A stretch of 64,000 nt of DNA, taken from assembly GCA_022750195.1 (NCBI GenBank), contig JAKIWE010000004.1, forward strand, positions 124,001 through 188,000. Direction: 5' to 3'. This stretch comes from Thermoplasmata archaeon (lineage in GTDB: Archaea > Thermoplasmatota > Thermoplasmata > Lutacidiplasmatales > UBA184). A model generated the notes under the pieces. It saw only the letters and a program-made list of their open reading frames with translations. It did not search any database and was not told the origin of the DNA. Of this stretch, positions 16,465 through 48,164 are shown piece by piece; position 1 is the stretch's first letter, and each line of letters starts with the position of its first letter. A program made the position numbers and the translations under genes.

Positions 16465-18122
16465 GTCTCCACCTCGGCCGGGTCGTCGGGGAGCGCGGCG
16501 ATCGCGCCAAGGCTGAGGGGGATCGCGGGAGGACGCTGGCGGATGTACCCGACCTCCGGGGGCGCGCGCCCCTCGAGTTGGGCGAGGATGAGCAGCGCGT
16601 CGGGGAGGCAGTACCGTCCCTGACAGAGTCCGGTGCCGAGGCTGGTGTACCGTTTGACCACCTCGATCCCCCGGAATCCGCGGCGCGACGCCTCCTCGAC
16701 CTCCTCGAGGAGGACGTCCTCGCAGGCGCAGGCGACGACCTTCGCGCGCCCACGGGGGCGGCCGAGCAACTCGCGATAGTACCCCGTGAGCTCGTTCGGC
16801 GGTCCGTCCGAAGCGGCCGACGGAGTCGGCGGAGGCGACGGGGCGCCCCCGAGGAGAAGCTGGTGCGAGACCGCGGCCGCGTCGGTCACGGGATCCGAGG
16901 CGCCGGCGACCTCCCCGCACGCGTACAAGCCGGGTACCGACGTCGCTCCCCCCGGTCCGACCTGCGGAAAGTAAGCGCCGGGGGATGACCGCCATCGCAT
17001 CGCGGCCCCCGCCTGGAAGAGCAACGGGTTGTTCGGCAGCCTTCGGTGGGCGAGGAGCACTGCGTCGGCGCCGAGCGAGAACGTTGAGCCCCGGCTTCGG
17101 GGGGCCAGAGTCACCGACCGGACCTGTCGATGACCGCGTGCGGCGAGCAGTAGGGTGCGAGGGTAGAGCGGGATCGCAAGGGCCGACGCCCGCTCGGCGA
17201 CCGCGGCGTCGATCGGTCCGGGAGCGACGACGGCCTCGACCTGCTCGCCGAAGCGGTGCAGCAGTTCCGCCGCGCGCGGGCCGCCTCCGAACAGCACGGC
17301 GCGCTGGAACGGCGGAGAGCCGTCGAGCGGCGTAAGGGCGATCGCCCCATCTCCCGTGACCACGCCGGGGCGGTCGTTGCCCGCGAAGAGAAGGCCCGCG
17401 TCGTATCCGCCGGTGGCCACGACCACCTTCTCCGCTCGGACGAGCGTGGTCAGGCCCCCCGTCTGCGCGGCGAGGAACCGGAACCGGCCGGCGCCTTCGC
17501 CCGCCGGGGGAGGTAGGAACGCGACGATCGTGCGAGGGCGACCGCCGGGGCCATCGGTCGATGGGCCGGGCGGCCCGCGGTCGAAGACTAGAGGGATCGT
17601 GCCCGCCTCCCGGAGTCGCTGGGCGACGGCGCCCCCGCTCCGGCCCGCGCCGATGACCGCGACCGGGACGTCGACCCGGTCGCCGCGCGGTTCGGGGATC
17701 GGACGCGTCGGCCGGGGGAGCTTCCCGTACCCGGCGAGACGCCGGACGACGCGATGGTAGAGCGGCGTCAGGGCTCGTGGGCGACGGAAGCCGTGGAGCG
17801 TGTCGAGACCGTGGGCGAAGAGCGTGTCGATCACGCCGAGCACGTCGAACCGGGGGGAAGGCCAAGCGTTCTCGGTCGTGACCCGGTCCCCGGGCTCCGG
17901 TTCGTAGAGGCAGGCTCGGACGTTGGGAACGCCGTTCACGCGGACGAGGCAGCCGGTGCAGGAGCCGACGCCGCAGAACGGTGCCCGGGGGCGGTGGTAC
18001 CGGATCGAGCGTTGCAGCAGCGGGAGGCGCCCACGGACGAGCGCCCGAGCGACGGGGGTACCCGGAGGGGAGCGGACGGTCGTTCCGTCGAAGGTGAATT
18101 CACGGAAGGTGACGGAACCCAT
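16461..18122 (-). CDS. SoxA/HcnAB-like iron-sulfur flavoprotein subunit
   Basis: 553 aa. The N-terminal [2Fe-2S] ferredoxin domain has Cys50, Cys55, Cys58 and Cys71. A Rossmann domain begins at VAVIGAGRSGG (about 155-165), with a second nucleotide motif around LFGGGPRAAELL. The C-terminal BFD-like domain has CACEDV and GLCQGRYC Cys pairs. This is the layout of the alpha subunit of heteromeric sarcosine oxidase, dye-linked proline/hydroxyproline dehydrogenase or HcnA/B. It would pass electrons from the SoxB-like partner. A TATA-like box 32 nt upstream (18150-18157) supports a leaderless ATG at 18122 and an operon of three genes. Confidence 0.8.
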   Translation of the reverse strand: MGSVTFREFTFDGTTVRSPPGTPVARALVRGRLPLLQRSIRYHRPRAPFCGVGSCTGCLVRVNGVPNVRACLYEPEPGDRVTTENAWPSPRFDVLGVIDTLFAHGLDTLHGFRRPRALTPLYHRVVRRLAGYGKLPRPTRPIPEPRGDRVDVPVAVIGAGRSGGAVAQRLREAGTIPLVFDRGPPGPSTDGPGGRPRTIVAFLPPPAGEGAGRFRFLAAQTGGLTTLVRAEKVVVATGGYDAGLLFAGNDRPGVVTGDGAIALTPLDGSPPFQRAVLFGGGPRAAELLHRFGEQVEAVVAPGPIDAAVAERASALAIPLYPRTLLLAARGHRQVRSVTLAPRSRGSTFSLGADAVLLAHRRLPNNPLLFQAGAAMRWRSSPGAYFPQVGPGGATSVPGLYACGEVAGASDPVTDAAAVSHQLLLGGAPSPPPTPSAASDGPPNELTGYYRELLGRPRGRAKVVACACEDVLLEEVEEASRRGFRGIEVVKRYTSLGTGLCQGRYCLPDALLILAQLEGRAPPEVGYIRQRPPAIPLSLGAIAALPDDPAEVET

Positions 18123-18149
18123 CGACGCCGGTGACGAGCGGAGCGCCGC

Positions 18150-18157
18150 GTATTTGA
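18150..18157 (-). promoter_or_regulatory. TATA-like box of the flavoprotein operon
   Basis: TCAAATAC on the minus strand centred 32 nt upstream of the SoxA-like start at 18122, consistent with a leaderless transcript. Confidence 0.45.
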
Positions 18158-18226
18158 GAGGCGCGGCGCCGTTGTGGCTGTGCCAACCGTGACGGACTTG
18201 GGCAGGGACGACCGTTTGACCGCACC

Positions 18227-18232
18227 TATATA
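18227..18232 (+). promoter_or_regulatory. TATA box of the AbrB-PhoU regulator gene
   Basis: A perfect TATATA lies 33 nt before the ATG at 18263. A GGGGAGG purine run also lies about 10 nt before the ATG. Confidence 0.6.
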
Positions 18233-18262
18233 GTATGCTGAGAAGTGGGGAGGCCTCTATCC

Positions 18263-19351
18263 ATGAGGACGCAAGGCGGGTACCACGGGCGCCGCATCCA
18301 GAAAACGGGGGGTTCGACGTTCATCGTCTCGCTTCCGAAGGCGTGGGTCACGAGCCGCAACCTCGGCGCCGGGGACGTACTGATGTTCGTCCCGCGGCCG
18401 GACGGCTCGCTCCTGCTGTACGCGGATTCCGGCCCCGCTGGGGAGGCGACGAAGCGGACCGTCCTGGTCTCCAACGACATGTCCGAGGACCACCTTTTCC
18501 GGCGGCTCGTCGCGGAGTACATTGCCGGCGCGCCCTTGCTCGAGATCCGAACCAGCGGGCGAATGCAGGCCCGGACCCGGAACGTCGTGCGGGGCTTCGC
18601 ACAGCGGATGATCGGTCCCGAGATTCTCGAAGAGACCAGTGAGGCCGTCGTCCTCCAGGACGTCGTGGGGGCGAACCCGCTCCCGATCCCCCAGGTCATC
18701 CGACGGATGCACCAGATGGTCCGCGCGATGCAGGCGGACGCGATGGCCGCGTTCCGGACGCAGGACGCGGGGATCGCCAAGGACGTGATGGAGCGCGACT
18801 GGGAGGTCGACCGGCTTCACTGGTTCGTCCAGAAGCAGGTGACAACCGCGCTGCGCGATGCTCGCACCCTCACCTCGCTCGGCCTTACGCTGCCTGAGTG
18901 CGCAACCTACCTCCTCGCCTCGCGCGTGATGGAGAGGATCGCGGACCACGCGGTCCGCATCGCTTCCACCGTCGCCGTCTTCGGCAAGGAGAAGCCCCCC
19001 CCGTCGGTCGTGGCCGAACTGGAGGGACTCGCCACCGGCGCCTCGCAGTCGCTGACGACCGCGCTCGAGGCGCTCGAGGGCAAGAAGGTCGACGAGGCGA
19101 ACGAGGTCGTGGACGCCGCGGAGCGGCTCGCCCGGCAGCGCGAAAAGATCCTTCAGGAGCTCGCGACCAAGCGCGGGCGCGTCGCCGTGGGGCTCGCCTA
19201 CGTCTTGGAGAGCCTGGAGCGCAGCGCGCTGTACGCGGCGGATCTCGCGGAGATCGCGATCAACCACGCGGTCGAACTCGGGGAGCCGAAGGAGCCAGCG
19301 GCCCCCGCGCGACGCGGGGAGAGCCGGGCGCCGGCCCTCGCCACGACGTAG
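18263..19351 (+). CDS. AbrB/SpoVT - PhoU domain regulator (paralogue 1)
   Basis: 362 aa. Residues about 5-50 form an AbrB/SpoVT-type DNA-binding swapped hairpin (GRRIQKTGGSTFIVSLPKAW, then LGAGD). The rest is two PhoU-like three-helix bundles with repeated ERIADHAVRIAS and ESLERSALYAADLAEIA metal-binding-type motifs. Such archaeal fusions are believed to regulate phosphate uptake genes. The ATG at 18263 is preferred over a GTG 18 nt upstream because of the TATA spacing. A paralogue lies at 47133-48164. No Pst ABC transporter genes are nearby. Confidence 0.85.
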   Translation: MRTQGGYHGRRIQKTGGSTFIVSLPKAWVTSRNLGAGDVLMFVPRPDGSLLLYADSGPAGEATKRTVLVSNDMSEDHLFRRLVAEYIAGAPLLEIRTSGRMQARTRNVVRGFAQRMIGPEILEETSEAVVLQDVVGANPLPIPQVIRRMHQMVRAMQADAMAAFRTQDAGIAKDVMERDWEVDRLHWFVQKQVTTALRDARTLTSLGLTLPECATYLLASRVMERIADHAVRIASTVAVFGKEKPPPSVVAELEGLATGASQSLTTALEALEGKKVDEANEVVDAAERLARQREKILQELATKRGRVAVGLAYVLESLERSALYAADLAEIAINHAVELGEPKEPAAPARRGESRAPALATT

Positions 19352-27499: not shown

Positions 27500-28975
27500 A
27501 TGGGAGAGAACATGCGAAAGAAAGTCCTGCGGCGCCGGGCGTACCTCCAGCGCAAGCAGCGGGCAGTTTCGCCCGTCGTAGCTACCTTGATCTTGATCTT
27601 GGTGGCGGTCGCGGCGGCGGCGGCACTGTACCTCTGGCTGGTAGCGTGGCAAGGCAACGTAACTGGTGGGATTGGGACGCCCACCGCGCAGTACACCGTG
27701 ACGATTGGCGGCAGCTCGTCGGTCTATCCGTTTGACCAAGTTGCAGTGAAGTACTTCGAGCAGAACAACTCGAACGTCATCATTAGCAACAACCAGGGCG
27801 GATCCGGCGCGGGTATGGCGGCGGTTTGTGCTGGCCAGGTGGACATCGGCGCGTCTTCGGCGGTCCAGACACCCTCCACCTTGGAATCGAAGTACAACTG
27901 CCCCATCACCAACGTCCAGGAGACGGTCGCTTACGACGCGGTCGACATGATCGTGCCGACGGCGAACACCCACACCCTCAATTCGATCAGCCAGACCGAC
28001 GTGCTCGCCATCTACGTCTCGGCCGGTGGCGGCGTTGCGGCTTGGAGCGGTGACTCGGGCTACTCTCAGGGCGTTGCGTTCAGCAGCGGGACACCCTACG
28101 CCTACCCGGTAGGCATCCCTGCCGCCGACGCAGGCGTGTGCGGTACGGTTCCAATCCCCACCGCGACCTGCCCGATCGACGTCCTTCCAGCCCCCTCGGG
28201 GACCGGTGGCGTCTACTCGTGGAACACGATTCCCGCGTGCGTACCCCAGCAGGCTGGCTGCACCAACGCAACCATCCCCAGCCCGGGTGTGCCGGAGCAC
28301 TTCACGGGAACCGCGGCCGGATCGAGCGCTTGTGAGTGGACTGTCTGCGCCTCGAGCCCGACCGGAAGCACCTCGGTGGCAAACACGATCGCTGTTTGGC
28401 ACCGACTTGACCCGGGCGGGACTGAGCAGAGCTTCACCGCGCGGATCCTTGGGATCGGTGCGGCGAGTGCCACCCCCGCCTTGGGCACGACGTCCTCGGC
28501 GAGCTACCTGCAGTTTACTGGCTGCACGGGAACGGGCCAGCTAAACGCTTGCACGGTCTCGACGAGCGGGTACTCGGCCGGCGACGGCAACCCTGGCGTG
28601 ATCACTGGGGTCGCAGCAGGCGCTAACGCAATTGGCTTCGCTTCGGACGGGCTCGTCCTGACGGCGGGCTCTGGCGTGGTCGCGATCCCCTTCGCGGGAC
28701 CGGGCCAGCCGACCGCCGTGACCCCGAGTGTCGCCAAGACGATCCCGCAGGGTATCCTCGGGAACTTCCTCACAACGGCTGGCGCCTCGAACGGATACGT
28801 GGGCTGGCGCCCATTCATCCTCGTCGAGACGAACGTGCCGACGGGCGAAGTTCTCCGGTTCCTGCAGTTCGTCATGGACCCCGCGGTGAACCAGGCGTGC
28901 GCGCTGTCTGCCTCTGAGGTCAGCCCCTTCCAGTCGGGGATGGCCGGCGTTGTGCCGGTCACTCCGCTGCCGTAG
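27500..28975 (+). CDS. PstS-like phosphate-binding protein with pilin-type (class III) signal
   Basis: 491 aa. A basic N-terminus ends in RKQRAVSPVV and is followed by a 20-residue hydrophobic helix. This is the class III pre-pilin signature, with PibD-type processing expected after RA. The body starts with IGGSSSVYPFDQVAVKYFE and has QGGSGAGMAAVCAGQVDIGASS, as in PstS phosphate-binding proteins. The family end (VLRFLQFVMDPAVNQAC) is present, with an insert of about 150 residues in between. It may bind phosphate at the surface as part of a pilus-like assembly. No PstCAB genes are nearby. An ATG at 27512 is an alternative start. A T9 terminator follows. Confidence 0.8.
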   Translation: MGENMRKKVLRRRAYLQRKQRAVSPVVATLILILVAVAAAAALYLWLVAWQGNVTGGIGTPTAQYTVTIGGSSSVYPFDQVAVKYFEQNNSNVIISNNQGGSGAGMAAVCAGQVDIGASSAVQTPSTLESKYNCPITNVQETVAYDAVDMIVPTANTHTLNSISQTDVLAIYVSAGGGVAAWSGDSGYSQGVAFSSGTPYAYPVGIPAADAGVCGTVPIPTATCPIDVLPAPSGTGGVYSWNTIPACVPQQAGCTNATIPSPGVPEHFTGTAAGSSACEWTVCASSPTGSTSVANTIAVWHRLDPGGTEQSFTARILGIGAASATPALGTTSSASYLQFTGCTGTGQLNACTVSTSGYSAGDGNPGVITGVAAGANAIGFASDGLVLTAGSGVVAIPFAGPGQPTAVTPSVAKTIPQGILGNFLTTAGASNGYVGWRPFILVETNVPTGEVLRFLQFVMDPAVNQACALSASEVSPFQSGMAGVVPVTPLP

Positions 28976-34375: not shown

Positions 34376-35224
34376 TTGGCGCGGTGGCTGGTGCGAGTGG
34401 GCTACGACGGGCGAGACTTCCAGGGATGGGCGAGGCAGCCGGGCGTCCGGTCGGTCGAGGGAGAGATCGAACGCGGGCTCGTCCGACAGGGCATCGCCGC
34501 GTCGGCGGAGGTGGCCCGTTTGCGCGTGGCGAGTCGCACGGATCGCGGCGTCAGCGCTCGTGGCAATGCGCTCGCGTTGACGAGCTCGCTCCACGGCCCT
34601 CCGCTCCTCCGGGCGCTCAACGGGATCGCTCCGGACATCTTCTTCACTGCGGCCCGGGAGGTCGGAACCGGCTTCTCCCCCCGGCGCGCGCTGCGCCGTT
34701 GGTACCGCTATTTTGAGACCCAAACGCCCCCCGTCCCTGGGGCTCTCGGTCGCTGGCGGCGGGTGGCAAGCCAGTTCGAGGGAAGGGTGGACGTCCGGTC
34801 CTTCGGGCGGCGGATGGACCCCGGCAAGCCCGTTTGGCGAGACGTCGAGCGGTTCCACGTCACGGAGCACGGCGGTGGGTTGCTCCTCGACCTATGGGCC
34901 CCCTCGTTCGTCTGGGGCATGGTCCGCAAGATGGTGACCGCGGGGCGGGCGGTCGTGCACGAGGAGCTCCCTATCGACCGGCTTCGAGCGGCAATCGAGG
35001 GTCGTGCACCCCGCGGGTTCGCGTTGGCCGAACCGGAGCCGCTGGTCCTTTGGTCGGTGGACTACGGCGAGAACTGGACCAACGCGGCGCCAGGGCCGAC
35101 CCGGACGCAGCGCCGCCGCTGGCAGAAGGAGCTGTCCCGGGCCCGGACCCGTACCGACCTTCAGGAGCTGGTCTGGGCCGACTTCCTCGACCCCCAGTCG
35201 GACCGCCGTCGACGTCCCGACTAG
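34376..35224 (+). CDS. truA: tRNA pseudouridine synthase A
   Basis: 282 aa. It has the N-terminal VRVGYDGRDFQGWARQPGVRSVEGEI block and the catalytic Asp in VASRTDRGVSARGN (about residues 53-66). Also present are ALNGIAPDIFF, RALRRWYRYFE and WAPSFVWGMVRKMV. It converts uridines in the anticodon arm (positions 38-40) to pseudouridine. The start codon is a TTG at 34376, with family homology beginning at once. It overlaps the convergent pilin gene by 4 nt. Confidence 0.9.
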   Translation: MARWLVRVGYDGRDFQGWARQPGVRSVEGEIERGLVRQGIAASAEVARLRVASRTDRGVSARGNALALTSSLHGPPLLRALNGIAPDIFFTAAREVGTGFSPRRALRRWYRYFETQTPPVPGALGRWRRVASQFEGRVDVRSFGRRMDPGKPVWRDVERFHVTEHGGGLLLDLWAPSFVWGMVRKMVTAGRAVVHEELPIDRLRAAIEGRAPRGFALAEPEPLVLWSVDYGENWTNAAPGPTRTQRRRWQKELSRARTRTDLQELVWADFLDPQSDRRRRPD

Positions 35225-35742
35225 GGGAGGATCATCCCGACCGAGCCTTGGAACGATCCGACCCCGTACACGACCAGTCGGTCGCCGTGCAGCGCGACCG
35301 CGGCCGAGTAGATCGAGAGCGTGTGTTGGGAGTTGACGGCGAGGGAGGATCCCAAGGACCAGGAGGCCGACCCGTACGCGTAGGAACCAATGACACCGCC
35401 CGTGATGCTGAGCACGCTGATCGTGGAGCCGCTCGGTAGGGCCACCGCCGCTCCGTTGGAGGCGAACAGTTGGAACTCGAGGTTGCCCCACTGCAAGCCG
35501 TGACCGGCCGCCGCGACGGAGAAGTTGTTCCAGTTCCCTCCGCTCCGGTTAACGCTGATCGGCGTGCCGAGCGCGAGGGCGGTCGAGATAGGGGTCTTCG
35601 GGGCGGTCCCGTTCGTGAGGCCACTGACGAGCACGTAGAGGACTGCCGCGAGGACGACGGTCATCGCCACGAGCAGGATGGTGGCGACGATCGGGCTCAC
35701 GCCACGCTTCGAGCGCGCTCCACGCCTGGACTGGTCCTTCAT
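35221..35742 (-). CDS. archaeal type IV pilin-like protein (DUF1628 type)
   Basis: 173 aa. The class III signal RSKRGVSPIVATILLVAMTVVLAAVLYVLV (about residues 8-36) is the standard archaeal pilin N-terminus, with cleavage expected after RG. The remainder is a small beta-rich globular head with Gly/Ser/Ala. The ATG at 35742 gives a short basic leader; the frame extends 15 codons further. It is 2.6 kb from the pilus assembly operon at 38.4-42.6 kb and a likely subunit for it. Confidence 0.8.
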   Translation of the reverse strand: MKDQSRRGARSKRGVSPIVATILLVAMTVVLAAVLYVLVSGLTNGTAPKTPISTALALGTPISVNRSGGNWNNFSVAAAGHGLQWGNLEFQLFASNGAAVALPSGSTISVLSITGGVIGSYAYGSASWSLGSSLAVNSQHTLSIYSAAVALHGDRLVVYGVGSFQGSVGMILP

Positions 35743-36066
35743 TTGCGGTTGGGTCCCCTCCGGAGGGGCGCGTATGCCCCGGTTCAACTACTTGAATCCT
35801 CGGAAGTGGAGAACGTTGAATGTCGATGTAGCTCTACGTCACAAAGCGAATACGCAGTGGTGCGTATCCAAGAATTCGGCGTGCTGCCGTCTCCCGGAGG
35901 GGGTGCCGGGGGTCGCCCCCTCCGTCGCGGGGGAGGACGCATTCATTCCCGGGCCTCGCGGGGGGGCTGGTACGGGCGAGTAGGTGCGGGTTGGGGCATC
36001 CATTTTGAAAGGGGAAGATTCCGTCGGGTCGGCTTATCGCATTGACGTGGGTTTCCTCCTCCGGCG
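35743..36066. other. intergenic region, no gene supported
   Basis: About 320 bases between the divergent pilin and phosphoesterase genes. The stretch around 35790-35880 is AT-richer and should hold promoters for one or both. No RNA gene or protein is recognised. Confidence 0.35.
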
Positions 36067-37134
36067 ATGCCCGTGGGGAGATCGATGGTCCCGTGGATGG
36101 TCACTCTCGCGCTGCTCGTGGCGGCCCTCATGATCGTGCCGGTGGGGTTCGCCCTGAGCGACCGGGCTCGGGCGACGGCGAGCGTTCAGCAGGTACCGGT
36201 GAACGGTCCGACGTGCGGGGAGTACTTCTGCCTCGCCACGCCGATCCATCATATCGTCGTAATCATGCTCGAGAACGCGGCGGCGATCAACGTCCTCGCG
36301 CAGGCTCCGTACATGGTCTACCTCGCGAAGACCTACGCCTACGCGAACCACAGTTTCGGGGCCTGCCATCCTTCCGAACCCAACTACTACGCGATCACGA
36401 TGGGCACGACCGCGGGCCAGTGCAACATCGGCAACAACTCGGTCATCCCGGGAACGGGCCCGAAGAACTTCGGGAACAACCTCGGGGACCTGCTCGACGC
36501 CCGTGGGCTGAGCTGGGCGGGGTTCTTCGAGTCCATGAACCAACCGTGCGAGATCCAGCAGAACCACACCGGGGTCTACGACTCGGGGCACAACCCGTTC
36601 GTGCACTTTGGGGACATCGTTTACAACAAGGCCCGATGCGACGCGCACGTCCTCAACTTCTCCGCCTGGCACCAGGACGTCGCGAACGGGAGCATCCCCA
36701 ACTTCTCGTTCGTCGTGCCGAACACGCTCGACGACGGTCACGATACCAGCACGGCGTGGGCGGACGGCTGGCTCCACCACTTCCTCCCACCGCTCCTGAA
36801 CAACACCAGCTGGGCGAAGAGCACCCTCTTCATCGTCACGTACGATGAGGGCGAGCCGGGGGGCCCGCCCGCCAATCTCCAGGGGTACTACGGCGGGATG
36901 CACGGGAACGTCAAGATCGATGGCGGCCAGGTCTACACGGCCCTCATCAGCCCGTACACGAAGGGCGAGGGAAACTTCACGTCGAACGTGACGGAGTACA
37001 ACCTGCTCACGACAATCGAGTGGTTGTTCTCGCTCCACGATTGTGGTAACTACGATGACCCGTCCCAGTGGTTCCCGCCGATGGCCGGCGCGTTCGAGTG
37101 GACCCCGGCGGACAACGATACGATCGGCCGCTGA
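36067..37134 (+). CDS. secreted phosphoesterase (AcpA / phospholipase C-like)
   Basis: 355 aa. A signal peptide or anchor at about 8-30 is followed by the phosphoesterase family start HIVVIMLENAAAINVL. Other blocks are FGACHPSEPNYYAITMG, NFSFVVPNTLDDGHD (metal-binding Asp/His) and FIVTYDEGEPGG. These enzymes release phosphate from organic esters outside the cell. With a PstS-like protein and two PhoU regulators in the window, phosphate scavenging is a reasonable context. It has several N-glycosylation sequons. Confidence 0.8.
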   Translation: MPVGRSMVPWMVTLALLVAALMIVPVGFALSDRARATASVQQVPVNGPTCGEYFCLATPIHHIVVIMLENAAAINVLAQAPYMVYLAKTYAYANHSFGACHPSEPNYYAITMGTTAGQCNIGNNSVIPGTGPKNFGNNLGDLLDARGLSWAGFFESMNQPCEIQQNHTGVYDSGHNPFVHFGDIVYNKARCDAHVLNFSAWHQDVANGSIPNFSFVVPNTLDDGHDTSTAWADGWLHHFLPPLLNNTSWAKSTLFIVTYDEGEPGGPPANLQGYYGGMHGNVKIDGGQVYTALISPYTKGEGNFTSNVTEYNLLTTIEWLFSLHDCGNYDDPSQWFPPMAGAFEWTPADNDTIGR

Positions 37135-38222: not shown

Positions 38223-38366
38223 TGCCGGGCCGTCCGTTGGGATTTAGGTCGACCTCAACCTCCCGATTCATTTCCCGTGCGTCCAGAAACCGGACGTATG
38301 GTGGGCTACGTAAACTAAGGAAAGTCCGGGTGAATCCCTTATTCTCGAAGGGGCGGTCGTAGTCCG

Positions 38367-40172
38367 ATGGCCCCTCCGGACGGCGCGAGCTCGACGGGCG
38401 CGCGCCCTCCGGGCCGGACCGACCCGCGGCAGAAGCCCCCCCGAAACGCGGCGGAGTCGAAACCTCAGCGGGCCTTGGCGAAGGTGAGCCCCAACGCCCG
38501 TGCCGCCCTGCTCCAGCGTTCGTTGGCCCTGGACGCCAAATTCGTCAACCCGTCCCTGCTCCCCGAGAAGGTCGCCGTCCAGTCGGAACTGGGCGAGATG
38601 CGCCGGCAACTGCTCGGGGACCGGCGAGAAGTGAACCTGACCTACCCGGTGAATCCGCCCTACGCCTTCGTCCACATCGCCTTCAGCGAGAACGACGGGG
38701 AGTTCCAGTACACGGTACTCGAGCCGACCCTTCACGTCGAGGAGAAGGCGAAGATCGTTGAGATCCGCAAACGGATGGAGGCGATCATGGGCCAGGAGGA
38801 GCTCCCGTTCGCAGGGACTCAGAGCATCGAGAACTCTCCCATCCTCCGGGAGTACCTTCGGCAGCGGTTCCTCACCGTCCTTGACCTGTACGACATCGAG
38901 GTCCCCCTGAAACGTCGCCCGGTGCTTCTCTACTACCTGCACCGGGAGTTCCTCGGGCTAGGGCGGACCGATGCGATCCTCCGCGACCCGTTCCTCGAGG
39001 ACGTCAGCTGTCTCGGGCCGGGGGTGCCCCTCTTCGTGTTTCACCGCGTGTTCGGCTCGGTGCGAACGAACATCGTCTTCGACAACGAGCTGGAACTGAA
39101 CAAGTACGTCTTCCGGCTGGCCCAGCTCGCGAGCAAGCACATCTCGATCTACCAGCCGATCCTGGACGCCACGCTGCGGGACGGAAGCCGCATCAACCTC
39201 ACCTTAGGGACGGAGGTCACGCGCAAGGGTTCGACCTTCAGTATCCGGAAGTTCTCGCAGGACCCGGTCTCTCCGATCGACCTCCTCCGTTTTGGCTCGC
39301 TCTCGGCTACGGAGCTGGCCTACTTCTGGATGCTCATCGAGCACCACCGTTCGCTCCTGATCTCCGGCGGGACGGCGAGCGGGAAGACGACTCTCCTCAA
39401 CGCCATCAGCATGTTCATCCGGCCGGAGGACAAGATCGTCTCGATCGAGGATACCCCGGAGATCCACATCGACCACCAGAACTGGATCCAGTCGGTGGCG
39501 CGGTCGGGGTACGGGATGGCGAGCGGGATCTCGGGCGCTTCAGGGGTCTCGGGCATTTCCGGGAACGCGGGCCGTTCGGTGGGCAGCGTCACCCTCTTCG
39601 ACCTGCTCGTGGCCGCCCTCCGCCAGCGCCCGGAGTACGTCATCGTCGGGGAGGTCCGGGGCAGCGAGTCGTTCACCCTGTTCCAGGCGATCTCGGTCGG
39701 CCATGCCTCGATGTCGACGATCCACGCCGGGTCGATCGGAGAGCTCCTCCACCGCGTGGAGAACGAGCCGATGAACATCCCCCGGGTACTGTTCCAGGCC
39801 CTAGACTCGGTGGCCTTCCCGGCCCAAGTCTCCGTCAAGAATAACCGTGTCCGCCGGGTCTCGAGCATCACCGAGATCCTCGAGGTCGACCCGGAGACGA
39901 ACGAGCTGTTGACGAACGAGGTGTTCCGATGGGATCCGGTGGAAGATCGGTTCACCTTCCTCGGTCGCAGCTTCGTGCTGGAGAAGATCGGGAAGGTCCG
40001 CGGTAAGTCGCTCGACTGGCTCTTCGGCGAGCTGCGGCGGAAGGAGAGCTACCTCGAGATGATGAACCGAGCGAACATCACCTACTTCAAGGACGTCAGC
40101 CGCGCGATCGCGGCGTACTACGTCGACCCCTCCGAAGCGGTCCGCAAGCTCCAGGGCCTCGTCGCCAGCTGA
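38367..40172 (+). CDS. type II/IV secretion-family pilus assembly ATPase (PilB/GspE-like)
   Basis: 601 aa. It powers assembly of archaeal type IV pili. The N-terminal domain leads to the motor with Walker A GGTASGKTTLL at about residues 333-343, IEDTPEIHI (Asp box) and Walker B-region YVIVGEVRGSES at about 422-433. A Gly/Ser-rich insert (about residues 384-406, ISGASGVSGISG) lies between the Asp box and Walker B, where relatives have a short loop. It is first of a three-gene operon with two TadC-like platform proteins, 6 nt upstream of the next. Confidence 0.9.
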   Translation: MAPPDGASSTGARPPGRTDPRQKPPRNAAESKPQRALAKVSPNARAALLQRSLALDAKFVNPSLLPEKVAVQSELGEMRRQLLGDRREVNLTYPVNPPYAFVHIAFSENDGEFQYTVLEPTLHVEEKAKIVEIRKRMEAIMGQEELPFAGTQSIENSPILREYLRQRFLTVLDLYDIEVPLKRRPVLLYYLHREFLGLGRTDAILRDPFLEDVSCLGPGVPLFVFHRVFGSVRTNIVFDNELELNKYVFRLAQLASKHISIYQPILDATLRDGSRINLTLGTEVTRKGSTFSIRKFSQDPVSPIDLLRFGSLSATELAYFWMLIEHHRSLLISGGTASGKTTLLNAISMFIRPEDKIVSIEDTPEIHIDHQNWIQSVARSGYGMASGISGASGVSGISGNAGRSVGSVTLFDLLVAALRQRPEYVIVGEVRGSESFTLFQAISVGHASMSTIHAGSIGELLHRVENEPMNIPRVLFQALDSVAFPAQVSVKNNRVRRVSSITEILEVDPETNELLTNEVFRWDPVEDRFTFLGRSFVLEKIGKVRGKSLDWLFGELRRKESYLEMMNRANITYFKDVSRAIAAYYVDPSEAVRKLQGLVAS

Positions 40173-40178
40173 GGGCCG

Positions 40179-41144
40179 ATGTTCCGCAAAGCCAAGGCCC
40201 CGATCGAGGCCTGGAAGACCGAAGGGGTCCCGGCCCCCATGGTGGCGCCCACTCCCCGCGAGCCGTTCGTCAAGCGGTACCGCGCGTTCTGTTTCGGTCT
40301 CATCGGCCAGCGCCTCGACAACCTCACCAGCTCCGATCTGCTGGCGGACCAGCTCAAGCAGGCCGGCATGAGCGTGACCCCCGGGATGCACCGGGCGGTC
40401 ACGATCGTGACCGCGCTGATCGCGATGGCCGTCTCGTTCGTTGTCGCTCTCGTGTTGTTCCGGTTCCTCCTCCACTCCCCCGATTGGTACGCCTACGTCG
40501 GGCTGCTCACCGTGCTCACGGGGGGAACGGTCGTCGCGGGCTTCCGGTTCTTACTGAGCTCCCGAATCGACACCCGCAAGGACCGGATCGAGCGGGAGCT
40601 GCCGTTCACCTTCAGCGAGCTCTCGGTGTTGGCGAGCACCGGCACCTCTCCTATCGAGCTCATCCGCCGGATGGCCCGGCGGAAGCACGACCCGGCGATG
40701 ACCTCGGAGTTCGCGAAGGTCGCCTACCGGACCGACATCCAGGGGAAGGACCTGATCTCGGCCTTGGCGGAGACCGCGAAAGAGGCCCCGTCGCTGGCGC
40801 TGCGCGAGGCGTTCTGGGACCTCGCCAACATGATCCACCAGGGCGGAAACCTCGACGAGTACCTGCGGACGAAGTCCGAGGAGGTCCTCGTCCTGAAGCG
40901 GATCGCCCAGAAATCGTTCATCGAACGGCTCCAGACCTACGTCGACATGTACGTCACCCTCGTCCTCGTGGGCGTCCTCATGGGGGGTGTGGGGGCCTTC
41001 CTCCTGAACACGCTGGGCCAACGTACGTTCGGCCTCGACTCGAACGCGATCCTCTTGCTGCTCGCCTTCGGGGTCGTCCCGGTGGCGGTCGCGATGACGT
41101 CGATCCTGATCTCCCTGGCCTACGCCCGAGCCGAGGCGAAGTGA
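40179..41144 (+). CDS. TadC/T2SSF pilus platform membrane protein 1
   Basis: 321 aa. Two TM helices near residues 65-85 and 100-120 are followed by the cytoplasmic T2SSF helical domain (ELPFTFSELSVLASTGTSPIELIRRMAR, then DLANMIHQGGNLDEYL). Two more TM helices lie near the C-terminus (about 255-275 and 290-315). It anchors the motor ATPase and the growing pilus. The stop overlaps a GTG of the next gene as GTGA. Confidence 0.85.
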   Translation: MFRKAKAPIEAWKTEGVPAPMVAPTPREPFVKRYRAFCFGLIGQRLDNLTSSDLLADQLKQAGMSVTPGMHRAVTIVTALIAMAVSFVVALVLFRFLLHSPDWYAYVGLLTVLTGGTVVAGFRFLLSSRIDTRKDRIERELPFTFSELSVLASTGTSPIELIRRMARRKHDPAMTSEFAKVAYRTDIQGKDLISALAETAKEAPSLALREAFWDLANMIHQGGNLDEYLRTKSEEVLVLKRIAQKSFIERLQTYVDMYVTLVLVGVLMGGVGAFLLNTLGQRTFGLDSNAILLLLAFGVVPVAVAMTSILISLAYARAEAK

Positions 41145-41149
41145 GCGGT

Positions 41150-42601
41150 ATGCGACGACCGGGGCTCACGCTGGTCCTCCTCGCGCTGGTCGTCGGCGTC
41201 GGCGCGTTGATCGGCGCCGGCTCGGCGCACGCGGCCCCGGTTCCCTTGACCCCGACCGCGAGTGGGCCGCTGACGATCACGCCCACCAACCCGCTCCCGG
41301 GGTCGGTCACCAACCTCCAGACCCCCACCATCACGGCGAGCTTCTCCGACAGTGCCTCCCAGGTCGACCCCACCCAGGTCACCCTGTTCCTCGATGGTTT
41401 CGACGACAGCTCGTTCGACGGGTTCAAGGCCACACCGACCGGCGTGAGCTTCCTCGTCCCCTCGATTCTGAAGCTGAAGGAAGGGTTGCACAACGTCACG
41501 GTCAAGGCCGCTGACAAGGTCGGCAACACCGCCCAAGAGAAGTGGAATTTCACGGTCAATACCTCGGCCGTCATCGGTCCGAGCGCGCCGATCAAGATCG
41601 CCCCGGAGAAGATCATCCTCTACGTCGCGCTCGGCATCGGCGTCGCCGCCTCCTGCTTCGGCGGCTACATCTTCTACCTCCAACAGGCGAAACGATTCAC
41701 CTTCCGGAAGTACTTCGCGACCCACCCGGTCCGCACGATTTACGTCGTGCTGTATGTGCCGGTCACCATCGCCGTCCTCTTCGTCATCATCGGACTGCTC
41801 TACGTGTACAACTTGCCGTTCTTGCCGCCGGGATCGCCCGACTACGTCATCATCGTGGGGATCTTCATCGCGCTGACCGCCTTCGCGTTCTATTCACGTC
41901 GTGAGCGACAGCAGCTGCGCGCCTACGAGCGGGCGTTCGCGCAGTTCCTGTTCGAGATGGCCGATGCCATGCGGGGAGGGCTGGACCCAGCGAAAGCGAT
42001 GGTCGAGCTGTCGAAGACCCAGGCCAACATCATGCGTAAGCCGCTCCGCATCGCGGCCGACGGCATCCAGGTCGGGCGACCCTTCGAGGACGTCCTGAAG
42101 GCGATGGTCGAGCCGATGAAGAGCGCGTTGATCTCCCGCTACGCCAACCTGATCGGCGAGGCCGCGACCGTCGGGGGCGAGACGTCGATCGTCATCTATC
42201 GGGCCGCGAAGGACATGGACGACTTCATCAAGATCGAGGCCGAGCGGGCGGGCGCGCTGTACCTTCCGGTCGTGGTCCTCTACATCGCCTTCGCCGTGCT
42301 GATGGCCGTCCTGTTCGCCCTCCTGTACATCGCCCCCAGTATCGGGACGCTCAACGTAGGGTCGGCGTTCGGTTCCGCCTCCCCCCTTACCTCCGGCGTG
42401 AGCGGGCAGGCGAACGCCCGGCTCGACCCCGCGACCCTCAAGGAGAGGTTCTTCGACCTCATGCTCATCAACTCCCTCGGAACGGGCATCATCATCGGCG
42501 CCTTCACGGAGGGCCGGGCTCGAGATGGGCTGATCCATTCTCTGGGGCTCGTCGCCGCCACCACCGTCGCCTTCGCGCTGTTCCCGATTCTCATCCACTA
42601 G
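41150..42601 (+). CDS. TadC-like platform protein 2 with N-terminal extracellular Ig-like domain
   Basis: 483 aa. A signal peptide (MRRPGLTLVLLALVVGVGALIGAGSAHA) is followed by an Ig-like domain (about 35-130) with PGSVTNLQTPTITASFSD and VTLFLDGF strands, then TM helices. The T2SSF domain (FLFEMADAMRGGLDPAKAMVELS, RYANLIGEAATVGGE) and C-terminal helices complete it. Ordinary platform proteins lack an outward Ig domain. A GTG 9 nt upstream (41141) overlaps the previous stop and is an alternative start. It is co-transcribed with the ATPase. Confidence 0.8.
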   Translation: MRRPGLTLVLLALVVGVGALIGAGSAHAAPVPLTPTASGPLTITPTNPLPGSVTNLQTPTITASFSDSASQVDPTQVTLFLDGFDDSSFDGFKATPTGVSFLVPSILKLKEGLHNVTVKAADKVGNTAQEKWNFTVNTSAVIGPSAPIKIAPEKIILYVALGIGVAASCFGGYIFYLQQAKRFTFRKYFATHPVRTIYVVLYVPVTIAVLFVIIGLLYVYNLPFLPPGSPDYVIIVGIFIALTAFAFYSRRERQQLRAYERAFAQFLFEMADAMRGGLDPAKAMVELSKTQANIMRKPLRIAADGIQVGRPFEDVLKAMVEPMKSALISRYANLIGEAATVGGETSIVIYRAAKDMDDFIKIEAERAGALYLPVVVLYIAFAVLMAVLFALLYIAPSIGTLNVGSAFGSASPLTSGVSGQANARLDPATLKERFFDLMLINSLGTGIIIGAFTEGRARDGLIHSLGLVAATTVAFALFPILIH

Positions 42602-42671: not shown

Positions 42672-43520
42672 CTACGGAGAGATGTACGGGATCGAAGCCG
42701 TACTCGTCAACCCGTCATTGTTGGTCACATTGAGGGTGACATTGTAGTGCGAGCCGGGCGGGCCTGGGAAATACGAGGGGGCGACCACCTGCTCGCCCGT
42801 CGGGGCGAACTGGGCGTGCGGGGCGAAGCCCTCGTAGACTTTCCACATCCATCCGACGATGGAGGCGTTTCCGGTCTGGAAGGAGTGGGAACCGTCCAGC
42901 ACGGGCACCGTTTGCAGGGTTCCGTTGTAGAACGTGACGATGGTCGAGATGATGGCGAGGGCCGTGGGGGGGAGGAACAATCCGTTGAACTTGTTCTGGA
43001 GGGCGGTGAACAGGCTCAACTGGATGTACGAGGTGGTCGGCAGGGTGAAGTTTAGGCCGTAGAACGAGCCGGTGGTCGGGGACTTCGAAAGATTGACGAT
43101 GAGGTTGACCTGCTCACGCGGAGCGAGAATGAGTTGGGCGCTCGTGGCGTTTCCGCGCACCCACGACAGGCTGTAGAGCCCGGTGCTCGGATCGACCCGG
43201 AGCACCTGGTACTGCGCGAGTGGGTTGGAGTTGACCGCCACCGAGGTAATCGTCGCGGAGTTGATGTACTCGCTCGCTAGCGTGAAGTTGAGACTCTCCC
43301 ACGCTGACGGATTCGTGGCGTTGACGGTGGGGATGACGTTCAGGATGCGAAGCGACTCCAGATGCTGTTCGTTCGAGAACGCCTGCTCCGATTGGGCCTG
43401 CTTCTGGTAGGCCTGGACGAACGCCGCGAACGCCGTCGCCGCCACGACCACGATGAGGACGAGCATCAGGGTCCCCACGATCTCGGAAAGGGCGCGCGCG
43501 CTCGCCCGGAACCGGCGCAT
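42672..43520 (-). CDS. large archaeal pilin-like protein
   Basis: 282 aa. The N-terminus RRFRASARALSEIVGTLMLVLIVVVAATAFAAFV is a class III signal plus pilin assembly helix, with RALSE at the processing site. A 240-residue Thr/Asn/Ser-rich extracellular domain follows, beta-rich and with many sequons, and an Ig-like end (HYNVTLNVTNNDGL). The ATG at 43520 gives a normal leader; the frame runs 30 codons further upstream. It is convergent with the platform operon and is probably a pilus subunit or tip protein. Confidence 0.75.
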   Translation of the reverse strand: MRRFRASARALSEIVGTLMLVLIVVVAATAFAAFVQAYQKQAQSEQAFSNEQHLESLRILNVIPTVNATNPSAWESLNFTLASEYINSATITSVAVNSNPLAQYQVLRVDPSTGLYSLSWVRGNATSAQLILAPREQVNLIVNLSKSPTTGSFYGLNFTLPTTSYIQLSLFTALQNKFNGLFLPPTALAIISTIVTFYNGTLQTVPVLDGSHSFQTGNASIVGWMWKVYEGFAPHAQFAPTGEQVVAPSYFPGPPGSHYNVTLNVTNNDGLTSTASIPYISP

Positions 43521-43645
43521 GGGCCGCCGAAAGTTACGTCCGTCATAGGCGAGCCCTCCATAGAAGTAGTAGGAATCCGGGGGTCTACGGCTTTGACATA
43601 CTATACTCATGATGTGGTTAAAGGACGCCGACTCCTCTCAACCCC

Positions 43646-44275
43646 ATGGGGCTCCCCGTCGAGGTTCCGGGCCTCGACACGATCATTCCTGACGTCGGCG
43701 AGGGCCGCCTCGTGGTGGTCGAAAGTGGACCCGACCCTGCGAAAGGCTTCTTCGTCCGGCAGCTCGGCCGCACCGCCTTACGGCTCGGCTGGCCGGTCAG
43801 CTTCGTCATCTCCCGGGATCGCCGGGAGTTGGACGAACTGTTCACCGCGGAGGGAACCCAGCTCCCCGAATACGCCGAACAGTTCAACGTCGTCGAGCAG
43901 GATGCGATCCATGCCGTGGACGGCTACGGACAGCAGGGCGGTTTGCTGGCCATCGACTCCTTCTCGTTCCTTACCTTGGAGCTCCCTGGGGATCGGCTGG
44001 CGCCGCTCCTGCGGAGCCTCCGCGACCTCGGGCGCGACCGGAAGACGACGGTGGTCCTCTCGACCGACCGGGGGATGTTCTCGCCGTCCGCCGAAGCGGT
44101 CACGAGCCACCTGGCCGACGGGGTTATCCAGTTCCACGGCAAGGAAGCTACGGAGGGCATCGTCCGGTTCATCCGTATCCCGAAGTGGACCAACGGGCGC
44201 TGGGTGGACCGGAACATCTACTATGAATTCGACGGCCGGCGCATCGCCATCGACCTCCGTCGTCGGGTCCTTTAG
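43646..44275 (+). CDS. ArlH/KaiC-like RecA-fold protein with degenerate Walker A
   Basis: 209 aa. The layout is that of the KaiC/ArlH single RecA domain: VVVESGPDPAKGFFVRQLG where Walker A should be, LLAIDSFSFLTL as Walker B, and DGVIQFHGKEATEGIVRFIRIPK at the C-terminus, as in KaiC family end strands. The P-loop lacks the GK[ST] ending, so ATP hydrolysis is doubtful. In archaella ArlH binds the motor ATPase; a matching regulatory role for this pilus is inferred. It is followed 15 nt later by an AAA ATPase gene. Confidence 0.65.
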   Translation: MGLPVEVPGLDTIIPDVGEGRLVVVESGPDPAKGFFVRQLGRTALRLGWPVSFVISRDRRELDELFTAEGTQLPEYAEQFNVVEQDAIHAVDGYGQQGGLLAIDSFSFLTLELPGDRLAPLLRSLRDLGRDRKTTVVLSTDRGMFSPSAEAVTSHLADGVIQFHGKEATEGIVRFIRIPKWTNGRWVDRNIYYEFDGRRIAIDLRRRVL

Positions 44276-44290
44276 TTCAGGAGATCTCCG

Positions 44291-45355
44291 GTGACCGAGA
44301 GCCCCTACGAGCGGTACGGCCTCACCGGTAGCCCGTTCCGAGACCTCGCGAGCGAGAGCCTCGACGATGTCGAGATCTTCCACGTCCACCTCCCGATCGA
44401 CGACCAGATGAAGGCGGTCCTCGACGAGGTGCTTGCCAAAGAGAACCGGGCCCTCGTGGCGGTCGTCGGGGCGATGGGGACCGGCAAGACCGAGCACCTC
44501 CGCTACGCGGCGGCCCTCGCCCGCCAAGGCAAGGCGTTCACCGTCTATTTCGACGTCCCCGCGAAGGCGACGTGGGTCCTCAGGCAGGTGGCGGCTGAGT
44601 TCCAACTGGCCGCGAAGACCGCGAAGCTCACGGGAGTGTTCTCTACGCCGGCCTGGCTCCGCGGAGTCGGAGCGCTCCAGAAGATGAAGGACCGGAAGTA
44701 CGACGCCGTCCGGGCGGGGAAAGCCATCGCCAAGGCCCTCAACGCCACCGCGCCGTCACTCCTCCTGCTGAACGACCTCCAGAACCTCGCCGAGTCGGGG
44801 GAGGCCCATCTGTTCACCAAGACCTTGCAGGAGATCGCCGACGGGATCAAGCCCGGGGCGATGGTGATGGTCGGCGCCTACCCGAGCTACCTTAACTGGA
44901 TGGGGAAGGAGTTCCCCGCGCTCGCCTCGCGCATCAACCGCCTGATCGCGCTCCCGAGCCTGACGAACGACGAAGCCGCGTTGCTGCTCGCGAAGAAGCT
45001 CCTCGCGAAGCGGCTCGTCGAGGACCTCGACCCCCTGTATCCGTTCGACCGCCTGTCCGTGGCCGCGATGAACAGCGCCGTGGCTGGGAATCCGCGCCGT
45101 CTGCTCGACCTGGCCGACCGGGCCGTTCAGTACGGGATCGATCACCGAGCGAACCGGATCGACGTCGACATCATCGAGGCGGTCCGCCCGGCTCCCGCCG
45201 TACGCCCGGCCCCGGCGCCCGCCGTAAGTCCGGCGATCCGAGACGCGTCGACCAGTTCTCCTTCTGCCTCGATCGCGACGCCCGTAGCCGCCCGGCTCCC
45301 TCCTCCGAAGCGGCTCACCGACGCAGGTACGGTCCTCGGCTCCGACTCTCAGTAG
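44291..45355 (+). CDS. AAA ATPase (ExeA/TniB/Orc-like)
   Basis: 354 aa. Walker A GAMGTGKTEH is at about residues 59-68, Walker B LLLLNDLQNL at about 155-164, then VGAYPSYL and an arginine-rich sensor region (ASRINRLIALPSL). The lid domain with NPRRLLDLADRA and a Pro/Ala-rich disordered tail from about 300 follow. It starts with GTG, preceded by AGGAGAT. ExeA-like ATPases help assemble secretion complexes, which fits the pilus cluster; a role in DNA transactions cannot be excluded. Confidence 0.75.
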   Translation: MTESPYERYGLTGSPFRDLASESLDDVEIFHVHLPIDDQMKAVLDEVLAKENRALVAVVGAMGTGKTEHLRYAAALARQGKAFTVYFDVPAKATWVLRQVAAEFQLAAKTAKLTGVFSTPAWLRGVGALQKMKDRKYDAVRAGKAIAKALNATAPSLLLLNDLQNLAESGEAHLFTKTLQEIADGIKPGAMVMVGAYPSYLNWMGKEFPALASRINRLIALPSLTNDEAALLLAKKLLAKRLVEDLDPLYPFDRLSVAAMNSAVAGNPRRLLDLADRAVQYGIDHRANRIDVDIIEAVRPAPAVRPAPAPAVSPAIRDASTSSPSASIATPVAARLPPPKRLTDAGTVLGSDSQ

Positions 45356-47132: not shown

Positions 47133-48164
47133 CTACGCGTGCGCGGCTTCGGTCGTCGGCGGCTCCCAGAGGACGGCGAGATTGATCGCCTGCTCGGCGA
47201 TGTCGGCGGCGTAGCTCGCCGTCCGACCCAGGCTGTCGACGACGATGCCGAGCGCGAGGAGCTCCTCACCTTTCTTGTTCGCCACCCGGTGGGCCAAGGC
47301 GTCGATGAGTTTCTGGTGCTGCACGCGAGCGTCGATCGCCTCGTTGGCGCCGTCGATGTCGCCGGCGACAAGAGTGCTGAACGCTTTGTCGAGGATCGCG
47401 ATCGCCGACGCGCACGCCACTTCGAGCTCCTTGTAGAGCTTCGGGTCGAGGGTCTTGCCGTCGCCGATCGTCGCGAAGGTGCCGGCGATCCGTTCCGCGT
47501 GGTCGCCGATCCGCTCGAGCAGCTTCGCGACGAGCCGGTGGCTGTGAGCGGCGAGGCCGAGGCGACTATCGCCGACCAGAGAGGGGGAGGTGTGAGCGAG
47601 GTTGAACTGCTTCGCGACCATCCAGTAGAGGCGGTCGACGTCCTGGTCGCGCTGCGCGACCTCGTGGGCCAGCGACGCGCCGGAGGTTTTCAGGGCTCGA
47701 ATCGAGTCTTCGAGCATGGCGCGCACGATGAGATGCATGCGGCGCAGGCACTTCTCGGAGCTCAGCTCGGAGGGGTCGGAGAGGTCCTGGATCACGAGCG
47801 AGTGCCGCCCTTCCTCGATGACCTCCGGCCCGATCGCGAGACGGCAGAATTCGCGAGCGACGCGGCGAACGAACACCCCCCGGTCCGGGGAGAATCGGAC
47901 CTCGATGAGGCCGTAGCCGGAGATGTACGCCCCGATCAGCTTCCGGAGGAGGTGCTCCCGCGCTTCGACGCCCCGTTCTTCGAAGACCTTCCGCCGGACG
48001 ACGGGTTTGTCGTTCGAATGGGGTCGCACCGATACCGAACCGTCGACCTCGGTCTCGAGGAACAGTGTATCGCCGGCTTTGAGGCCCGCGTTGAGTACCC
48101 AGCGCTTGGGGAGGGAGACGAGGTAGGTGGAGCCTCCCGCCACCTGAAGCTTGCGCCCTTCCAT
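47133..48164 (-). CDS. AbrB/SpoVT - PhoU domain regulator (paralogue 2)
   Basis: 343 aa. It has the same build as the gene at 18263: an AbrB hairpin (RKLQVAGGSTYLVSLPKRWV, then LKAGD) followed by two PhoU bundles with LLERIGDHAERIAGTF and VVDSLGRTASYAADIAEQAINLAV. It probably regulates phosphate-related transcription. An AGATTTA element about 27 nt upstream fits a leaderless start at 48164. The two paralogues differ enough to be old duplicates. Confidence 0.85.
   Translation of the reverse strand: MEGRKLQVAGGSTYLVSLPKRWVLNAGLKAGDTLFLETEVDGSVSVRPHSNDKPVVRRKVFEERGVEAREHLLRKLIGAYISGYGLIEVRFSPDRGVFVRRVAREFCRLAIGPEVIEEGRHSLVIQDLSDPSELSSEKCLRRMHLIVRAMLEDSIRALKTSGASLAHEVAQRDQDVDRLYWMVAKQFNLAHTSPSLVGDSRLGLAAHSHRLVAKLLERIGDHAERIAGTFATIGDGKTLDPKLYKELEVACASAIAILDKAFSTLVAGDIDGANEAIDARVQHQKLIDALAHRVANKKGEELLALGIVVDSLGRTASYAADIAEQAINLAVLWEPPTTEAAHA

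Follow-up and report, generated by a model that had tools for sequence, protein, structure and literature searches.

In the bindosome of Sulfolobus, substrate-binding proteins that carry a class III signal are cut by a prepilin peptidase, and function depends on a pair of the PilB/PilC type (PMC2910488, PMC4187195, PMC4371748). Among the annotated hits of the 2007 FlaFind survey, which covered 22 archaeal genomes, 33 were substrate-binding proteins, and eight further such proteins were named, so that class III-signal binding proteins were already known as a kind from many archaea (PMC2910488). Studies of the bindosome itself have been limited to S. solfataricus, according to a review, which adds that no such appendage has been observed and that a wide distribution of bindosomes is possible (PMC4187195). 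The case described here comes from the order Lutacidiplasmatales, which holds the AcS and UBA184 genomes and comprises soil-dwelling archaea from acidic sites that lack archaellum genes (PMC9287336). It concerns a PstS-type protein with a pilin N-terminus, here called pilin-PstS. We consider it probable that this protein belongs to a phosphate-type equivalent of the sugar bindosome known from Sulfolobus, and is a PstS-type receptor mounted on a type IV pilin chassis, served by a dedicated assembly machine and feeding the Pst permease.

The window, meaning the whole stretch of 64,000 nucleotides that was analysed, belongs to a host genome of 2.45 Mb in 52 contigs (95.65% complete, 5.57% contaminated). 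The gene and its parts are laid out in it as follows:

27500..28975, plus strand: pilin-PstS gene, 491 aa, from the ATG at 27500 to a stop ending at 28975, defined by matches to PF12849 and TIGR02537 and by the alignment of relatives
27500..27565, plus strand: basic leader, residues 1–22, ending in KQRA, with a predicted cut after A22
27566..27652, plus strand: pilin helix (H-domain), residues 23–51, with 24 of the 25 positions V23–L47 invariant and a helix at 25–51 in the model
27692..28975, plus strand: PstS-type head, residues 65–491, with long variable inserts, defined by PF12849, AlphaFold2/Foldseek and a motif alignment to solved PstS

The mechanical open reading frame begins upstream, at GTG 27449; ATG 27500 was chosen as the start because a purine-rich stretch lies 5′ of it and because relatives begin at the equivalent place. 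From there the protein displays the features of a class III prepilin, namely a charged leader, A or G at −1 and a hydrophobic helix past the site, which reads KQRA/VSPVV. TIGR02537, the NCBIfam model of archaellin and type IV pilin N-termini, matches residues 21–48 with 30.6 bits (cut-off 20). That the site is not due to chance is argued by V23–P25, conserved in all 23 aligned relatives, and by position 22 (−1), which is A or G in every one of them; at −2, K or R stands in 18 of the 23. Residue 1 of the solved Iho670 protein of Ignicoccus (5kyh) aligns to V23, which fits cleavage after A22. Pilin-PstS would be made as a prepilin, its leader being removed by the host's archaeal prepilin peptidase, for which there is a candidate at L113:6223-7134 (PF06847, 32.7 against a cut-off of 29.9; PF01478 below cut-off). 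Elsewhere in the host genome, a large protein of 723 aa (L115:1413-3581) has a class III-like N-terminus.

The head matches PF12849 (PBP_like_2) at 40.3, over the cut-off of 27. The dedicated NCBIfam models of PstS, against the main reading, cover only part of pilin-PstS and stay below their cut-offs (TIGR02136, 68.4 against 206.6; TIGR00975, 28.1 against 205; TIGR04505, 21.5 against 175). An AlphaFold2 model (pTM 0.70, mean pLDDT 73.1), weak at residues 183–236, 255–275 and 322–336, was searched with Foldseek; PstS- and DING-type phosphate-binding proteins appear in the first 49 rows, with 4gd5 as the best (TM-score 0.82, target). As modelled, the protein has a type II PBP fold resembling solved PstS. 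Its phosphate-site columns align with the equivalent motifs of solved PstS; by the contact numbering of E. coli PstS, the positions that we take to be phosphate contacts are highly conserved, with R302, G307, S72 and G105 present in 23 of 23 aligned members, D304 and T308 in 21 and D115 in 19. Five cysteines are invariant across the same 23 members. The preliminary description had seen a pre-pilin signature and hydrophobic helix on a phosphate-binding fold, which the two models over cut-off and the predicted structure bear out; it had also named loss of the phosphate-binding residues as what would speak against it, and the alignment contains a single substitution in the window copy, G306, where 17 of the 23 members have Ser. 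The retained site also tells against a first alternative, in which the protein builds a true adhesive or structural pilus with a PstS-derived head repurposed for surface or mineral binding or as a virus receptor, and hands no phosphate to PstCAB. The long and variable head inserts (32% for residues 161–295) are what such a pilus might be expected to show.

Conservation in pilin-PstS is concentrated in the helix. Across 23 sequences, mean pairwise identity is 97.5% for residues 22–47, as against 26.9% for the leader, 60.7% for residues 48–65, and 58.4%, 32.4% and 44.5% for the head segments 66–160, 161–295 and 296–470; from V23 to L47 the sole variation is I/V at position 35. In the canonical, TM-anchored PstS of the same family's genomes (n = 17) this order is reversed, the anchor having 51.4% and the head 71.4% and 69.1%. 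Where helix residues are identical and have four or six possible codons, the codons agree in no more than 47.5% of cases (325 pairs). Since the codons differ, recent gene conversion as the source of the identity is ruled out, and the low agreement indicates that the constraint acts on the protein sequence and not on the DNA. Packing against neighbouring subunits would explain such conservation, which a plain anchor does not account for. Helix conservation of this pilin kind would suit an adhesive pilus too. It is harder to bring into line with a second alternative, in which PstS is simply anchored in the membrane and makes use of a class III signal, the helix being the anchor and TadA an adjoining gene that plays no part. 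TM anchoring is indeed what the host's canonical PstS shows, but canonical anchors vary more than their heads, and the helix of pilin-PstS varies far less.

A scan of genome contigs with the single protein as query returned no relative, whereas the alignment-based contig scan gave 36 loci, of which L088-L090, pilin-type without a PstS head, were left unused. Most of the named relatives that this alignment scan brought up are Thermoplasmata MAGs (UBA184, AcS and JOPF series), and pilin-type PstS is present in 27 of the 103 genomes of the host's family. In a sample of the phylum, at least 13 of 389 genomes match at 1e-20, and in at least seven of these the match extends from the pilin segment onwards (G000, G052, G018, G553, G433, G418 and G521); in a sample of Nitrososphaeria, at least 9 of 300 match at 1e-15, at least two from the pilin segment on (G103 and G227). 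Both sets of counts are lower bounds, four or five candidates per genome at most having been scored. G553 is the same place as G106 and was counted once, and the weak match of G013, a small ordinary pilin, was excluded. A full archaeal-type pilin-PstS also stands on a contig labelled Acidobacteriaceae (L077), which is probably misbinned.

The assembly genes are found farther along the window, in one cluster:

38367..40172, plus strand: TadA/PilB-type assembly ATPase (tadA), 601 aa, PF00437 at 114.8 bits; its ortholog adjoins pilin-PstS in relatives
40179..41144, plus strand: TadC-type platform protein 1, PF00482 over cut-off; kept in the relatives' cluster
41150..42601, plus strand: TadC-type platform protein 2, PF00482 over cut-off, with a weak Ig-like match (Big_13, below cut-off); start codon chosen; conserved
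42672..43610, minus strand: second pilin-type protein, PF07790 at 26.2 against 25.2 bits; conserved in the relatives' cluster
43646..44275, plus strand: KaiC-like protein, PF06745 at 24.8 against 26.6, below cut-off; conserved in the cluster
44291..45355, plus strand: AAA protein, PF13401 over cut-off; conserved in the cluster
47133..48164, minus strand: AbrB-PhoU protein at the cluster end, PF01895 and PF04014 over cut-off

In the relatives the link to this cluster is close. At 14 of the 19 loci with a pilin-type gene, a TadA match lies divergently, 213–324 bp from the pilin-PstS start; a fifteenth locus (L047) bears a divergent TadA fragment at 50% identity that runs off the contig end. An AbrB-PhoU counterpart is found at 8 of the 14 TadA-adjoining loci, and the remaining ones end at the limit of the stretch or contig. 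Against the main reading, TadA is absent at four of the 19 (L038, L043, L045 and L051); at L045 just 16 bp of contig lie upstream, and L043, a second copy, shares its genome with L042, which does have TadA. The window itself departs from the pattern, again against the main reading, as its pilin-PstS stands 9.4 kb upstream of tadA on the same strand; to the left of tadA it has a gene for a small pilin (35221-35787) and one for a phosphoesterase (36067-37134). TruA, an amidohydrolase and a 225-aa protein flank both this arrangement and that of L054, so that the difference is most simply explained by a local move that included an inversion, which would make the window a rearranged locus. The phosphoesterase just 5′ of tadA is of extracellular type (PF04185) and is absent from the searched stretches of relatives. 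Two more T2SSE-type ATPases of the host lie near a contig end (L114, G000:C47:208000-221771); counterparts occur in many genomes of the family and represent a separate pilus system.

The divergent region between pilin-PstS and tadA of the relatives contains a shared 26-bp element, of which the window holds one copy:

38305..38330, minus strand: 26-bp element, window copy, lying 36 bp upstream of the tadA start codon (ATG), located with a matrix from 20 relatives

The matrix was trained without four loci of poor fit (L038, L043, L031 and L051) and without the window, which was reserved for the test. There, the site at 38305-38330 scores 26.9, the best of all window positions (the next reaches 17.3), and none of 200 column-permuted matrices attains that score. 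With each locus left out in turn, its own site ranked first in 17 of 20 cases, L025, L026 and L047 being the failures. The correctly spaced element pattern, CGGANNNNCCGTAGNNTCCGTAG, has one match in the window, at 38306-38328, which is weak taken alone, 0.36 being expected at three mismatches or fewer; the matrix result carries more weight. The window's own pilin-PstS is preceded by a degenerate copy and, against the main reading, no good site precedes the host pst operon (best 9.0, L112). A site at L041 between pilin-PstS and pstS (19.5) was not clearly over chance and was dropped. By its position, the AbrB-PhoU protein is a candidate regulator of the element, and some phosphate-responsive control is conceivable. 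One might even suppose that pilin-PstS is a phosphate sensor controlling pilus assembly or the cluster rather than a transport receptor, since KaiC-like, AAA and PhoU/AbrB genes lie within the cluster and the shared element stands 5′ of tadA. We hold this to be very improbable: no signalling domain appears among the Pfam and NCBIfam model matches of pilin-PstS, and the adjacency of Pst permease genes described below fits uptake better.

The tie between TadA and pilin-PstS extends from gene order to inheritance. Among the matches listed, a close TadA (69–77% identity to that of the window) occurs in 22 of the 103 family genomes, the host included, the other TadA matches listed for the family having 38–44% identity. 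Twenty-one of these 22 genomes also hold pilin-PstS among the matches listed, the exception (G100) having the C-terminal part of TadA only, at a contig start. Six pilin-PstS genomes lack a close TadA among the matches listed, against the main reading: G023, which is 90% complete and bears a TadA fragment of 50% identity, and G071, G076, G083, G090 and G095, which are 59–77% complete. For the co-occurrence among the matches listed, Fisher's test gives p = 1.5e-15, a value that ignores kinship. In a TadA tree of 53 rows, the family group falls together with Thermoplasmatota G106 and Nitrososphaeria G103, G104 and G227 in one clade (support 100/100), separate from the other ATPase rows. TadA adjoins pilin-PstS in G103 and G106 and lies on a different contig in G227; the tree row for G104 is a different piece from the TadA fragment beside its pilin-PstS. 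In G110, G114 and G126, Nitrososphaeria with no pilin-PstS among the matches listed, the best TadA reaches 37–40%. These comparisons support co-inheritance of the TadA clade with pilin-PstS across two phyla.

A tree of the heads shows the same division, a branch with 100/100 support parting 18 pilin-type heads from 15 canonical PstS. Nested among the pilin-type heads, against the main reading, is one that a plain TM anchor carries (L029), so that the pilin tail seems dispensable for some members. This lends the membrane-anchor alternative some colour, but the co-inheritance of the TadA clade with pilin-PstS speaks against a TadA that plays no part, and we regard a mere anchor as unlikely. At L029 and L044, heads of the pilin-PstS family have changed chassis: they sit on a plain TM anchor, after which come repeats of the type ETGLPSGTxW.

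Where the receptor would deliver its phosphate is suggested by the Pst genes. Queries with PstC, PstA and PstB had no match within the 64,000-nt window at E 1e-4; the host's TM-anchored PstS and its PstC (324 aa), PstA and PstB are encoded in a row on another contig, and the host encodes an additional PstS-like protein. In some relatives Pst genes do adjoin pilin-PstS (L039, L040, L133, L134 and L226-L228). Within the family, PstS, PstC and PstA follow 3′ on the same strand at L039 and L040, and PstS alone is seen nearby at L041 and L051, close to contig ends; at 15 of the 19 family loci, however, the stretch read holds no Pst gene, which runs against the main reading. Among the eight loci read outside the family (L132-L136 and L226-L228), TadA adjoins at six and Pst genes at five. 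A single 16.6-kb contig of G103 (Nitrososphaerales) unites pilin-PstS, TadA, two TadC, a pilin-type gene, PstS, PstC, PstA and PstB, and one contig of G104 holds PstA, PstB, pilin-PstS and the TadA fragment. Three Thermoplasmatota genomes from other families (G521, G418 and G433) have pilin-PstS between a fused PstC-PstA and TadA, and PstB lies no more than about 12 kb away; a canonical PstS query against the stretches read matches pilin-PstS only, or nothing.

The fused PstC-PstA reading frames encode 1081–1122 aa (L226:10129-13374, L227:1080-4364 and L228:5858-9226) and consist of two BPD_transp_1 stretches and a long insert without a Pfam match. The PstC ectodomain insert of L228 was modelled as beta-rich, confidently over about residues 60–280 of the piece (pTM 0.45). 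L228 also has two PstB-type genes (353-1207 and 17948-18715); one is a neighbour of PhoU, and the other closes the pilus cluster.

The absence of PstCAB beside the window's gene, as stated in the preliminary description, is thus correct. Its wider suggestion, a phosphate version of bindosome-like display, has gained from the TadA/TadC linkage, the two-phyla co-inheritance and the helix constraint, but the missing PstCAB can no longer be taken as a hint of display when Pst genes adjoin at the seven loci named above. Their adjacency, with the window as a rearranged locus, makes it most likely that the receptor feeds the Pst permease. The bare surroundings of most family loci would agree with an adhesive pilus, but Pst genes adjoin pilin-PstS in two phyla, and in the stretch read of three genomes it is the sole PstS accompanying PstCA; together with the retained phosphate site, this leaves a purely adhesive or structural role improbable.

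For the phosphate receptor on a pilin chassis, the following course can be proposed. Once freed of its leader, the mature helix would be handled by the dedicated TadA/TadC1/TadC2 machine, drawing subunits into an ordered assembly; many copies of pilin-PstS might then be arrayed in regular order on the outside of the cell or within the envelope, either as a pilus or as an envelope complex like the one proposed for the bindosome, and their PstS heads would capture phosphate and load the Pst permease. A bolder version sees in pilin-PstS the main building block of a type IV filament of its own that gathers phosphate, its dense phosphate-binding heads displayed on the surface and linked to the Pst permease, which in some relatives would meet the array through a tall beta-rich ectodomain. 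This would be a pilus for nutrient uptake and not for adhesion or movement, of single origin and spread through two archaeal phyla; we put it forward as a speculation that is rather doubtful.

No PstS with a class III signal and no phosphate bindosome were found in the open-licence literature, and the archaeal pilus census of 2016 has neither PstS, PhoU nor phosphate in its main text. As far as our searches go, and within the open-licence literature, what is new is the phosphate head, the TadA clade tied to it, the locus that it shares with Pst genes, and a distribution across two phyla. If the main reading is true, a type IV pilus machine has been specialised for uptake. The conserved locus, with a binding protein, an assembly ATPase, two platform proteins and sometimes a permease, offers a compact unit with which to test how widely bindosomes are distributed, and extends the test to an inorganic nutrient and to archaea of acidic soils.

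Four described systems help to place pilin-PstS. With the canonical PstS of PstSCAB it has the fold and the phosphate-site motifs in common, but in these genomes the canonical proteins are anchored by a variable TM segment and fall across the 100/100 branch from it. Iho670 of Ignicoccus hospitalis (5kyh) resembles it in the helix, which aligns from V23; that protein, however, forms a known adhesion filament, and its head is unrelated to the pilin-PstS head in the search. Binding proteins with class III signals, as collected with FlaFind (Szabo 2007) and described in PMC2910488, are of the same general kind. Pilin-PstS resembles the Sulfolobus bindosome (GlcS and AraS; Bas system) in being a binding protein with a class III signal. 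Yet the bindosome serves sugars in Sulfolobus, whereas pilin-PstS has a phosphate-type head and occurs in Thermoplasmatota and Nitrososphaeria; and, unlike the bindosome proteins, it is encoded in relatives beside the assembly genes and sometimes beside a permease.
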